From the NCBI GenBank assembly GCA_947458545.1, contig CANGYH010000001.1, forward strand, positions 434,001 to 498,000: DNA of 64,000 bases. The letters run 5' to 3'. The position numbers and the translations under genes were made by a program. The notes under the pieces are model-generated. The model saw only the letters and a list, made by a program, of their open reading frames with translations. It was not told the DNA's origin and made no database searches. The stretch comes from Cytophagaceae bacterium. GTDB taxonomy: Bacteria; Bacteroidota; Bacteroidia; Cytophagales; Flexibacteraceae. Positions 31,525 to 35,169 of this stretch are shown in pieces. The stretch's first letter is position 1; the number at the start of each line of letters is the position of its first letter.

Positions 31525-32343
31525 CTAGCTACGGCCCATTAGATAATAAATGCCTGCGTAAGCCACCACGCCCAGTCCATTGAGCACCACCAGCCCAAAG
31601 ACGTCTTTATAAACCAAAGGAAAACCCTGCCTAAACCGCAACACCAGCCTGGTATATGCAACCAGCACGGGTGCCAGGCACAGCACTAATACCTCTACCT
31701 TAGGCACAACTGCCCAAGCCAGCGCCAAAAAAATACCAAAGAGCAGCCCCGTAGCCGCCAAGCATCCCTTGGTGCCCAGCACCATGGCCACGGTCGTGTC
31801 GCCGCGGCGCGCGTCTTCATCCATCTGGTAGGCCTGCGTAATAGGATAGCTTGCCACCAGATAAACAAAAATGGCGGCTAACGGGCCAGGCGCTATGGCC
31901 TGGCTTGCCAAGGCCGCTATCATGGCATAGATCAACACGCCCTGAAAAAGCCCCACCATTACCAAACTAAGCCAAGGCAGCGCCTTGATGCGGACTCGAT
32001 GATAACTGTAAAGCCTGCTAGCTACCTGATACACCAGCACCCCAACAAAAACCTTAGGCACTACCATCCAGGTTAACACCAGTGCCGCCAGATCCATAAC
32101 CTGTACCAACCGGCCCAGTGACAATGTAACGTTGGGCGGAGAAGCCAACCCCCCGATAGGCCCGGTATCTCTGTCGAAGTAGGTGTTATAGCCATTGCTG
32201 GCCGGATATACCAGCAGGTGAAGAATGCCAAACAACCATAAATGCGATACATTGCATGCTTTTACCATTGCAAGCGAAAGCAGAAACGCAGGCATTAACA
32301 AAAGGCTAAAGCCAAACCGTAAGTTTTTAATTGCGTTTAACAT
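31525..32343 (-). CDS. UbiA-family prenyltransferase
   Basis: This 272-residue integral membrane protein has about eight to nine helices. It carries the two aspartate-rich motifs of the UbiA superfamily: NGYNTYFDRD (residues 50-59) and YQMDEDARRGDT (172-182). These bind the magnesium-diphosphate of an isoprenyl donor. The family attaches prenyl chains to aromatic or other small acceptors (menaquinone, ubiquinone, heme O, phenolics). It does not look like MenA or CtaB. Its start is 24 bases from the divergent type III PKS start, which strongly suggests a shared pathway in which it prenylates the PKS product; that is inference. Confidence 0.88.
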   Translation of the reverse strand: MLNAIKNLRFGFSLLLMPAFLLSLAMVKACNVSHLWLFGILHLLVYPASNGYNTYFDRDTGPIGGLASPPNVTLSLGRLVQVMDLAALVLTWMVVPKVFVGVLVYQVASRLYSYHRVRIKALPWLSLVMVGLFQGVLIYAMIAALASQAIAPGPLAAIFVYLVASYPITQAYQMDEDARRGDTTVAMVLGTKGCLAATGLLFGIFLALAWAVVPKVEVLVLCLAPVLVAYTRLVLRFRQGFPLVYKDVFGLVVLNGLGVVAYAGIYYLMGRS

Positions 32344-32367
32344 TCTATTAGCCTACGGCGGTCTTTA

Positions 32368-33438
32368 ATGGCGTTTATTCATGGGCTTACATTGGTAGAG
32401 CCTCCCTACAAACATCGGCAAGATGCAATACTGAGCTTCATGCTCAAGCACTTTGCGGCCAGCAGCAAAGAAAGCCGGATGCTCGCCAGCGCGTTTGCAG
32501 GGTCAGGTATCGACACGCGCTTTTCCATTCTGCCCGATTTTTCTGCTGGTATGGGTGCGCCGCAACTCTTTATAGGCGCGCATCTGCCCAATATCTCCGC
32601 TAGGATGGCCCTCTATAAGCTCTGGGCCGCACGTTTAATGGCTGAAGCAGCCCAGCGCACCATAGAGAAGGCACGGATAACGGCGCAGGCCATTACGCAC
32701 CTTGTTACCTTCAGTTGTACGGGGCTATCCAACCCGGGCGTAGAGAATACCCTATTAAAAACCTGCGGCCTGGCCGCAACGGTCGAGACGCATTTTATCA
32801 ACTTTGCCGGTTGTCATGGGGCTTTTAAAGCCATCAAACTGGCCAAAAGCCTGGCCAGAAGCTACGAGGGCAACGCCCGCATCTTAGTATGTGGCGTAGA
32901 GCTATGCACCCTGCATTTTATGCCAGGCACCACTGGCGACCAAATCCGGGCCAATACCATCTTTAGCGACGGTTGTGCAGGCTTCATCGTCAGCAGCGAG
33001 GCGCCATCAGACCAGCCAGCTTACGCCATTGAAAGCCACCAGCAGGCTGCCATCACAGATGCGGAAGACCTTATGAGCTGGAACATCGGCGAAAGCGCCT
33101 TTTTTATGACGCTCAGCTCCAAAATCGACCAAGCGCTCAAAGGCTTCAACTTACCCCAGTTCGTCGGTAAATTCAGCCGTAGCAGCCAGGCCAAAGTCGC
33201 ATGTCACCCAGGTGGGAAGTCTATTCTGGATTGTGTGCGGCAGCAGCTTGACCACTGCGAAGACACCTCTTTGGCGGGCAGCTATAAAGTATTGAAAAAC
33301 TTTGGCAACATGAGCTCTATCTCAATCCTTAAGGTGCTAGAGGATGAGTTTCGACTCCAGACCCAGCATTTAACTGCTATAGGGTTTGGCCCGGGCCTGA
33401 CGGTAGAAGGCCTCGCCTTGCAGTTGCAGACCGCCTAA
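32368..33438 (+). CDS. Type III polyketide synthase (chalcone/stilbene synthase family)
   Basis: The 356-residue thiolase-fold enzyme should condense a starter acyl-CoA with malonyl-CoA units to form a phenolic or pyrone ring. The catalytic triad is present: Cys117 in FSCTGLSNPG, His280 in CHPGGKS and Asn314 in NFGNMSS. The family signature GFGPGLTVEG closes the protein (339-348). FAGCHGAFKA matches the conserved region after the catalytic cysteine. Length is slightly short of plant enzymes but usual for bacteria. Downstream, a methyltransferase starts 4 bases after the stop and a flavin oxygenase overlaps that. Starter unit cannot be read from sequence; a fatty acyl starter would give alkylresorcinols or alkylpyrones. 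Confidence 0.93.
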   Translation: MAFIHGLTLVEPPYKHRQDAILSFMLKHFAASSKESRMLASAFAGSGIDTRFSILPDFSAGMGAPQLFIGAHLPNISARMALYKLWAARLMAEAAQRTIEKARITAQAITHLVTFSCTGLSNPGVENTLLKTCGLAATVETHFINFAGCHGAFKAIKLAKSLARSYEGNARILVCGVELCTLHFMPGTTGDQIRANTIFSDGCAGFIVSSEAPSDQPAYAIESHQQAAITDAEDLMSWNIGESAFFMTLSSKIDQALKGFNLPQFVGKFSRSSQAKVACHPGGKSILDCVRQQLDHCEDTSLAGSYKVLKNFGNMSSISILKVLEDEFRLQTQHLTAIGFGPGLTVEGLALQLQTA

Positions 33439-33442
33439 GCCT

Positions 33443-34141
33443 ATGCCAGACTTTCGCCGACGCTCTACCGAACTTGAGATGCTCGACCACCCAGGTCAAT
33501 TCTCATCAGGCGTTTTAAGCCAGACATACCGCGAGATCAACTTCATTAACAAGTACCTGCTCGGAGACTATTTCTTGCAGAATGACCTGATCAGGTTGTT
33601 AATGGGCTACCCCACCAAAACCCTGACGCTGCTAGACCTGGGCTGTGGCAACGGTAACCTTCTGCGCAAGTTGCAACTGGCCCTAAAACCCTTAGGCTTC
33701 CGAGTGATAGGCGTAGGGTTCGACCCTTATTTGGAAAGCATCGGTGACAAGTTTCAGACTGAAGATCTACACCTTTATAGTGACTGGAACCAACTGGTTG
33801 CCCGGCACCCGATAGACATTGCCATTACAAGCCTAACCCTGCACCACCTTTACGACGAGGTACTGGCCGAGGCACTCCATAGGCTCATGGTAGCGCCACG
33901 GTACGGTTTCGTAATCTCAGATTTGGTCAGGAGCCCTATTGCCTACTATCTGATTAAAGGTATGACGGCCGTCTTCTCGCGGTCTGACTTGGTCAAAAAC
34001 GATGCCCCGCTCTCGGTATGCCGAGGTTTCTCCAGGGCCGATATGGTTGCCATGTCGCTCGTTGCAGAGCCTGGTACCCACATCCAAATTCAGCAGAATA
34101 TTGCCTTCCGGTGGCATATCATCGGCCGCAAAACGGTATGA
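33443..34141 (+). CDS. SAM-dependent methyltransferase
   Basis: The 232-residue class I methyltransferase has the SAM-binding motif LLDLGCGNGNLL (about residues 63-74), an acidic loop near GVGFDPYLES and motif IV-like DIAITSLTLHHL. The N-terminal STELEMLDHP segment resembles methyltransferases that accompany type III PKS genes in other Bacteroidota, recalled rather than searched. It begins 4 bases after the PKS stop and shares an ATGA overlap with the flavoprotein. O- or C-methylation of the polyketide phenol is the likely job, parallel to SrsB in Streptomyces. Confidence 0.88.
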   Translation: MPDFRRRSTELEMLDHPGQFSSGVLSQTYREINFINKYLLGDYFLQNDLIRLLMGYPTKTLTLLDLGCGNGNLLRKLQLALKPLGFRVIGVGFDPYLESIGDKFQTEDLHLYSDWNQLVARHPIDIAITSLTLHHLYDEVLAEALHRLMVAPRYGFVISDLVRSPIAYYLIKGMTAVFSRSDLVKNDAPLSVCRGFSRADMVAMSLVAEPGTHIQIQQNIAFRWHIIGRKTV

Positions 34142-35169
34142 GCGTCATCATTGTTGGTGCAGGATTAGCGGGCCTGTCTTGTGGTATAGAGTTGCTGCAA
34201 GCCGGATACGATGTTACCATTTTAGATAAGGGCCAGGTCCCATCGCTTAAAGTTTGTGGCGAATACTTGTCTTTAGAAGCTCTGCCGATCTTGGAGCAGC
34301 TAGGCGTTGCCCTCGGCTACAGCCAACACCCATTGATTGATACCCTTGTTGCCCAAGCCGGCAAAGCTACCTCCAGGCAGATGCTGCCGCTGGGTGGGCT
34401 GGGCATATCAAGGCAACTGCTCGATGGCCGTCTTAAAGACCGGTTCGAGGCCTTGGGCGGCAAGCTGTTGCAGTATGCCCCGGCCAAGGCCATTACCAGC
34501 CAAACCGTGACCCTCAAAGACGGACAATCCTTATCAGCCGCAAGGGTAGTAAACGCCACAGGCAGGCAAAATCCCTTTGCTGAGCATGCAAGGGGCTCTG
34601 GCCTTTATGTGGGGTATAAAAAGCAAATCCCATTGCCGCCGGGCTGGCCCGTCAGCCAGATATACTTGTCCTTCCACCGATGGGGGTACTTTGGCATCAA
34701 TGCCATAGAAGGCAGCAGATTGTGCATTTGCACCTTAGCCAACCAAGAAGCCTTTAGGCAATCTGGCAGCATCCAAAATCACATAAATGCCATCCAGGGC
34801 CTGGAGCCTGAAATTAGGGCACTCATTAAAGAGCCTGCCCCATCCGTGGCCGTGTCCAACTTTTCCTTTTACGACTACGAGCCAGCCAACCTACCCCAGA
34901 TCGGAGATGCAGGACGTAACATCCCTCCATTGGTGGGCAATGGTATGGCGTTAGCCCTGCGGTCTGGCATAGAGATGGGCAAAAGCCTTGCCACCCATAG
35001 AGCGCCAAACCTGCACAAAGAGAACTTCCGCATTGGCTTCGGCATTGCGCTCAATAAGTTGGCGCAAGGGCCCGCTGCAGGGCTTTCTCTCTGGGCCATG
35101 GAAAACCTGCCCCAACTTGGGCAGCGCAGCATTGCCCAAACGCATGGCGTGCCCGAGCGCCTGGCTTAA
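34138..35169 (+). CDS. FAD-dependent monooxygenase (PKS cluster)
   Basis: From the ATG at 34138 (overlapping the methyltransferase TGA) the protein has 343 residues; the longer open frame upstream overlaps the methyltransferase and lacks homology. It has the FAD Rossmann motif VGAGLAG (6-12), a conserved KVCGEYLS motif near 40, NATGR near 140, and the second flavin site IGDAGRNIPPLVGNGMALAL near 260-275. This is the group-A flavin hydroxylase/geranylgeranyl-reductase fold. In the cluster it would hydroxylate or dehydrogenate the phenol, as SrsC does. Its TAA overlaps the TAA of the convergent lectin gene through TTAA. Confidence 0.87.
   Translation: MSVIIVGAGLAGLSCGIELLQAGYDVTILDKGQVPSLKVCGEYLSLEALPILEQLGVALGYSQHPLIDTLVAQAGKATSRQMLPLGGLGISRQLLDGRLKDRFEALGGKLLQYAPAKAITSQTVTLKDGQSLSAARVVNATGRQNPFAEHARGSGLYVGYKKQIPLPPGWPVSQIYLSFHRWGYFGINAIEGSRLCICTLANQEAFRQSGSIQNHINAIQGLEPEIRALIKEPAPSVAVSNFSFYDYEPANLPQIGDAGRNIPPLVGNGMALALRSGIEMGKSLATHRAPNLHKENFRIGFGIALNKLAQGPAAGLSLWAMENLPQLGQRSIAQTHGVPERLA

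Follow-up and report, generated by a model that had tools for sequence, protein, structure and literature searches.

Several described gene clusters join a type III polyketide synthase (PKS) to tailoring enzymes; the statements taken here from published work refer to excerpts of the papers cited. The agqABCD cluster of Actinoplanes missouriensis leads to alkyl-O-dihydrogeranyl-methoxyhydroquinones (PMC3227686, PMC10896814, PMC7692728), and its UbiA-like protein AgqD O-prenylates the alkyl-methoxyhydroquinone (PMC3227686). The srsABC cluster of Streptomyces griseus yields alkylquinones (PMC10896814). PKSs from planctomycete operons with a methyltransferase (MT) and an oxidoreductase make pentadecyl- and heptadecylresorcinols, and co-expression of the MT and oxidoreductase of Gimesia maris adds a methyl group, probably on carbon, the role of the oxidoreductase being left open (PMC10896814). 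The order hidC-hidA-hidB is known in some hid-like clusters (PMC10896814, PMC8086630), and a prenyltransferase has been reported in one hierridin-like cluster of cyanobacteria (PMC8086630). In Micromonospora endolithica, the loseolamycin locus holds a UbiA-family prenyltransferase, an MT and a type III PKS close together (PMC7587189). Here we analyze a locus encoding a type III PKS, an MT, a flavoprotein and a divergently transcribed UbiA-superfamily prenyltransferase (UbiA below) at positions 31525-35169 of a 64,000-nt window, by which we mean the whole stretch of DNA analyzed (Cytophagaceae bacterium, assembly GCA_947458545.1 of 9 contigs and 3.23 Mb, contig CANGYH010000001.1, 434,001-498,000, forward strand). 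The four enzymes probably work at the membrane as a single pathway, with a prenylated phenolic lipid as its product.

The gene set recurs well beyond the window. In a phylum sample of 395 genomes, whose ranks differ from those of NCBI (Fulvivirga, placed in Cytophagales by NCBI, is labeled same phylum only), a PKS was found in 179 genomes at E<=0.001 and a closer PKS in 109 at E<=1e-37; 101 neighborhoods of closer PKS genes, the window included, passed the score used. An MT gene adjoins the PKS gene on the same strand in 88 of these 101 neighborhoods, whereas the window-clade UbiA adjoins it in 20 (13 divergent, 7 co-directional), so the PKS-MT-flavoprotein core extends beyond the range of the UbiA. 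The MT and flavoprotein genes form an adjacent pair in 74 neighborhoods, with a window-type flavoprotein in 21 of these pairs and a distant type in the other 53. All 26 genomes with a member of the UbiA clade (E<=1e-86) are among the 109 with a closer PKS (Fisher p 2.6e-16, ignoring relatedness), and within the order and class of the window the two sets coincide, the same 23 genomes holding a closer PKS and this UbiA. A sample of 241 genomes of the order, in which two genes of the set, UbiA and PKS, were counted, gave UbiA in 176 and PKS in 179, with both in 173 and neither in 59 (Fisher p 2.6e-45, ignoring relatedness). In the window's own family, 10 of 11 genomes hold both genes and the eleventh holds neither.

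Named genomes were drawn as the best 80 of at least 586 relatives, ranked by similarity to the sequence of one relative, and the set is therefore biased toward the kin of that reference; it includes Algoriphagus, Belliella, Aquiflexum, Cecembia, Fulvivirga, Marivirga, Cyclobacterium, Chryseolinea and their kin. Among these best 80, UbiA lies within 1 kb of the PKS in 76, divergent in all 77 gene pairs and across spacers that are also short (mostly 12-125 bases), the MT also adjoins the PKS in 74, and 63 have a window-type flavoprotein no more than 3 kb from UbiA. Four other loci (L279, L281, L308 and L309) carry UbiA, PKS, MT and flavoprotein genes on a single strand as an apparent operon. Because the set recurs across the phylum, chance assembly of the four genes is excluded. 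The original prediction had suggested such recurrence in Bacteroidota, and the phylum and order samples agree with it; the rarity of adjacency that it named as a sign against its reading is not seen, adjacency in relatives being common.

A second line of evidence comes from genus g217, which belongs to the same order as the window but to another family (f4), and in which UbiA and PKS are often a single protein. A search of 222 f4 genomes with a 652-residue query matched 47 genomes of g217. In 32 of the 47 there was one stop-free match covering query residues 1-652 or beginning no more than 5 residues off its start; separate abutting or overlapping UbiA and PKS genes were present in 13, and 2 gave a weak PKS match only. 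The UBI and PKS profiles fell within one stop-free frame in all seven loci extracted (L292, L293, L294, L295, L299, L320 and L321), of which L293 and L295 are 99% identical. Within the 652 residues the UbiA match spans 7-251 and the PKS match 295-648, with hardly any linker, and in the five loci with longer flanks the MT and flavoprotein genes come directly after it. Genome G519 has UbiA and PKS as separate genes on the same strand, which is likely to represent the state before fusion. An apparent second fusion in G751, a frame of 698 residues, was rejected because translation gave separate frames of 314 and 383 residues, the PKS frame lacking a UBI domain. Among the matches listed in a search of titles and abstract openings, largely of papers outside subscription, neither a UbiA-type III PKS fusion nor this cluster or its product in Bacteroidota was described. 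No other single observation points as strongly to UbiA acting together with the PKS as this fusion, which ties the prenyltransferase to the polyketide step. The fusion is also a direct, testable handle, as one protein would be expected to turn acyl-CoA, malonyl-CoA and prenyl diphosphate into a prenylated phenol.

These observations fit a simple scheme. The PKS would use malonyl units to lengthen an acyl starter and then close a phenolic ring, most likely of the alkylresorcinol type; the MT would methylate a ring carbon or oxygen; the flavoprotein would oxidize the ring toward a hydroquinone or quinone; and UbiA would transfer an isoprenyl chain onto the phenol. For the ring type, its hydroxylation, the lengths of the starter and prenyl chains, the prenyl donor, the order of steps, the methyl site, the product and its role, this is what we infer from the enzymes encoded. 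The pathway is real, recurring and coherent, and it is probably order-wide and membrane-bound. Because the UbiA/PKS pair is kept in so many genomes of the order, it looks like a standing lipid trait rather than an occasional antibiotic. We suggest more tentatively, at somewhat less than even chances, that most Cytophagales make an undescribed two-tailed membrane lipid, an alkyl-hydroquinone or -quinone bearing an isoprenyl chain, and that the PKS is a membrane partner of UbiA that hands over the phenol directly, a link made permanent by fusion in one genus. Surveys of Flavobacteriaceae put type III PKSs at 10.74% (PMC10734526) and 9% (PMC7440613) of clusters, and the passages of the two surveys that deal with them name no product. 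The spread across the order and the fusion lift the interest of the locus above that of a routine cluster.

The assignments of the individual enzymes bear on this scheme to different degrees. The PKS carries both Chal_sti_synt domains above the cut-offs of 27 (PF00195, 60.1 bits; PF02797, 43 bits) and a Cys-His-Asn triad, C149/H280/N314, that is kept in all 114 PKSs compared (96 closer, 18 remote). His280 and Asn314 had been named in the original prediction, as had the gene set, its positions and its spacings (a 4-base gap from PKS stop to MT start, an ATGA overlap and a 24-base divergent spacer), and all of these stand. The catalytic cysteine does not: Cys117, which had been given that role, is kept in 96 of 96 closer PKSs and is a different residue from the nucleophile, which we take from the type III PKS motif to be Cys149 in FAGCHGA. 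In a tree of 60 rows, the window PKS and the MT-linked PKSs share one group with planctomycete PKSs at a weak fork (85/78). Six Bacteroidota PKSs (L083, L094, L129, L134, L136 and L137), which are encoded without an MT or flavoprotein gene next to them, stand apart from the MT-linked ones and group with PKS18 and Ectocarpus PKS1 (99/98). No PKS relative was found in viral contigs.

The UbiA protein belongs to its superfamily by PF01040 (40.6 bits, cut-off 34.2) and by two aspartate-rich motifs, NTYFDRD (N53, D57, D59) and DEDARRGD, whose N and D columns are invariant in a 19-row alignment. MenA, CtaB and DGGGP synthase share the superfamily and the aspartate-rich motifs, but the window UbiA matched neither of the NCBIfam MenA/CtaB models searched (TIGR00751, TIGR01473). 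The host genome has five PF01040 matches, the four above cut-off being the window UbiA, a GGGP-synthase-like protein, and two further proteins that also exceed their curated NCBIfam cut-offs, a CtaB (220 bits against 210.3) and a MenA (259.7 against 102.15). An identity as MenA or CtaB was accordingly rejected, and with it the ordinary cofactor biosynthesis to which a grouping with these enzymes would have pointed. In a tree of 41 rows, 32 window-type rows, the window included, separate from six f25 rows (this family is probably Flavobacteriaceae) and from the CtaB, MenA and GGGP-like proteins of the host genome; at a support of 67/93, a single window-type clade is neither firmly shown nor rejected. 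A weaker UbiA tier of the phylum sample consists of 34 genomes and one fragment, all from f25 and all PKS-positive, with UbiA not near the PKS, and ten more f25 genomes have a PKS without it. These f25 relatives (L246-L259) bear an IGGLxxPP signature and lie away from the PKS; in 14 loci they are divergent from a neighbor of about 300 residues, mostly with a gene of about 205 residues following. One contig titled Candidatus Anammoxibacter (L224, a metagenome-assembled genome) bears a UbiA-PKS-MT-flavoprotein set of the Cytophagales type, perhaps through a binning error.

The MT matches PF13489 at 31.6 bits (cut-off 27). Its score against NCBIfam PRK06202 is 87 bits, under the cut-off of 243, a criterion that is not a published requirement; a Paludisphaera MT reaches 232, also below, and the Bacteroidota MT of L114 reaches 275, above it. 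The AlphaFold model of the MT (mean confidence, pLDDT, 89.9) has NovO and CouO at ranks 3 and 6 of its PDB neighbors; both are methyltransferases of aminocoumarin antibiotics and CouO is titled a C-methyltransferase, which weakly favors C-methylation by the window MT. The flavoprotein, roughly 30 residues shorter than the majority of its relatives and gapped close to its C terminus, exceeds the Pfam cut-offs for DAO (55.7, cut-off 27.9) and FAD_binding_3 (47.4, cut-off 22). Its model (pLDDT 87.0) has flavin halogenases, hydroxylases and a geranylgeranyl (GG)-reductase-like protein about equally among its nearest PDB folds. A relative of this flavoprotein lies on a Hymenobacter plasmid (L277, 5107-10116) beside an annotated isonitrile synthase and a TauD/TfdA dioxygenase, with no PKS annotated within 19 kb.

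Several observations weigh against a single pathway to a prenylated phenolic lipid. Of the 26 UbiA-clade genomes of the phylum sample, 6 do not have UbiA beside the PKS, and the two are on different contigs in 5 of the 10 genomes of the window's family that hold both; in the order sample, six genomes have the PKS without this UbiA (two of them with a PKS of the remote tier, ~1e-38) and three have UbiA without the PKS. Some genomes with both genes lack an MT or flavoprotein beside the PKS (L311, L313, L282, L284, L286). At L148, L149, L151 and L156, in genomes that lack this UbiA, the MT and flavoprotein genes are paired with a remote type III PKS, so the pair is not specific to the window-type PKS. 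The window's own gene copies are divergent: its UbiA is only 27-36% identical to relatives, and its PKS forms a long branch (2.5 and 2.2) of ambiguous placement in each of the two trees. In the second tree, to which nine PKSs of the window's family had been added, the window PKS joins, unstarred (92/92), three PKSs of the same family that have neither MT nor flavoprotein adjoining, which makes a shift of substrate possible in this lineage. We nevertheless hold the prenylated phenolic lipid put forward by the original prediction to be the best reading, backed as it is by co-occurrence and fusion; what needs correcting is Cys117, and the combination does have a precedent.

The PKS could instead yield an alkylpyrone or some other polyketide that is not a resorcinol, and UbiA would then prenylate this compound or a hydroxylated derivative. 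Sequence alone cannot tell the ring type, the window PKS is divergent, among solved relatives its family profile best matches Ectocarpus PKS1, Steely1 and PKS18, and its top NCBIfam match is DpgA, far under the cut-off. We think a pyrone unlikely, however, as the Bacteroidota PKSs that do group with PKS18 and Ectocarpus PKS1 come from loci without MT or flavoprotein, the window and MT-linked PKSs group with planctomycete PKSs instead, albeit at a fork still open, and an MT and a ring hydroxylase would presumably act poorly on a pyrone. UbiA, for its part, might serve another pathway and lie near the PKS by accident, since it is on the opposite strand in the window and apart from the PKS in several genomes. 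This would be hard to reconcile with the presence of both genes in 173 of the 182 order-sample genomes that hold either, unlinked cases included, or with the fusion in 32 genomes of g217, and we regard it as highly improbable.

The flavoprotein admits two other roles. It could be a prenyl-chain reductase resembling GG reductase, giving a final lipid whose prenyl chain is reduced, like the dihydrogeranyl group of the agq product; its best NCBIfam match is indeed the GG-reductase model TIGR02032, although at 60 bits it falls short of membership (cut-off 158.8), and the GG-reductase-like structure 3oz2 is a neighbor at rank 16. Related flavoproteins, however, occur beside PKS and MT genes where no UbiA is annotated, in many Bacteroidota loci and in plasmid regions (of six inspected, four have PKS, MT and flavoprotein all annotated and none has UbiA), so the enzyme seems not to need a prenylated substrate and such a reductase is quite unlikely. 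Halogenation of the ring is suggested by the nearest PDB fold, the brominase Bmp2 (TM 0.78), and by the halogenases that also top the profile search; yet W.W.IP, which we take to be the motif of flavin-dependent halogenases, is absent from all 26 members of the flavoprotein family, on which ground this role was rejected as scarcely credible. Since the motif is missing and relatives occur without an annotated UbiA, ring oxidation is the best reading of the flavoprotein.

Features of the locus (positions in the window)
Feature	Length	Position	Strand	Families and remarks
UbiA-superfamily membrane prenyltransferase	272 aa	31525..32343	-	PF01040; divergent from PKS
Spacer between divergent UbiA and PKS starts	24 bases	32344..32367	.	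from sequence
Type III PKS	356 aa	32368..33438	+	PF00195/PF02797; Cys149, His280, Asn314
Class I S-adenosylmethionine-dependent MT	232 aa	33443..34141	+	PF13489
Flavin adenine dinucleotide (FAD)-dependent oxidoreductase (flavoprotein)	343 aa	34138..35169	+	DAO/FAD_binding_3; probable aromatic-ring monooxygenase
Overlap ATGA (flavoprotein ATG 34138-34140 with MT TGA)		34138-34141		

A second kind of cluster, with the order flavoprotein, MT, remote type III PKS, is seen in L151 (5398-10947) and also in L148, L149 and L156. In L151 the remote PKS is followed by genes that we named from their sequences as FabZ-like, ketosynthase-like, acyl carrier protein (ACP)-like and phosphopantetheinyl-transferase-like, which suggests that such clusters may use an ACP-bound starter. 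On Sphingobium and Novosphingobium plasmids (L266, L268), a phosphopantetheine-binding protein and a ketosynthase are annotated directly before the type III PKS, an order that hints at a dedicated supply of starter.

How, then, does the locus compare with the described systems? That it works like the agq and hid pathways is well supported. The MT-oxidoreductase-PKS operon of planctomycetes and the hidABC genes for cyanobacterial hierridins correspond to a trio homologous to that of the window, as shown for Paludisphaera borealis, where, in the gene order of hid, homologous MT and flavoprotein genes lie beside a homologous PKS gene and match the window-family profiles at E 4e-35 (MT), 7e-35 (flavoprotein) and 4e-114 (PKS); the window differs in its order, PKS-MT-flavoprotein, and in the added UbiA. 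Homologous trios are also present on plasmids of Sphingobium, Methylobacterium and Deinococcus, and the plasmid collection gave no UbiA match. Of four actinobacterial type III PKS loci from plasmid records, none carried an MT or UBI relative next to the PKS, and the flavoprotein profile gave one match. The loseolamycin locus, likened to the window by description only, lists an acyl-CoA dehydrogenase, not a flavin monooxygenase. The srsABC cluster, likened by gene content, resembles the window in having a PKS, a methyltransferase (presumably SrsB) and a flavin enzyme (presumably SrsC) that lead to phenolic lipids and quinones, and it is not known to include a UbiA. In gene content the locus also resembles agqABCD, which combines tailoring genes and a type III PKS with a UbiA-like enzyme that prenylates a phenolic lipid, as is proposed for the window; we take AgqB to be the methyltransferase and AgqC the flavin hydroxylase, and the window holds all four kinds of enzyme at one locus. 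The combination therefore has a precedent, and its novelty is lower than the original prediction had claimed; AgqD offers a functional precedent, by analogy, for the window UbiA. The agq cluster is that of an actinomycete; the window-type set has its own UbiA clade across one order of Bacteroidota and, in one genus, a UbiA fused to the PKS.

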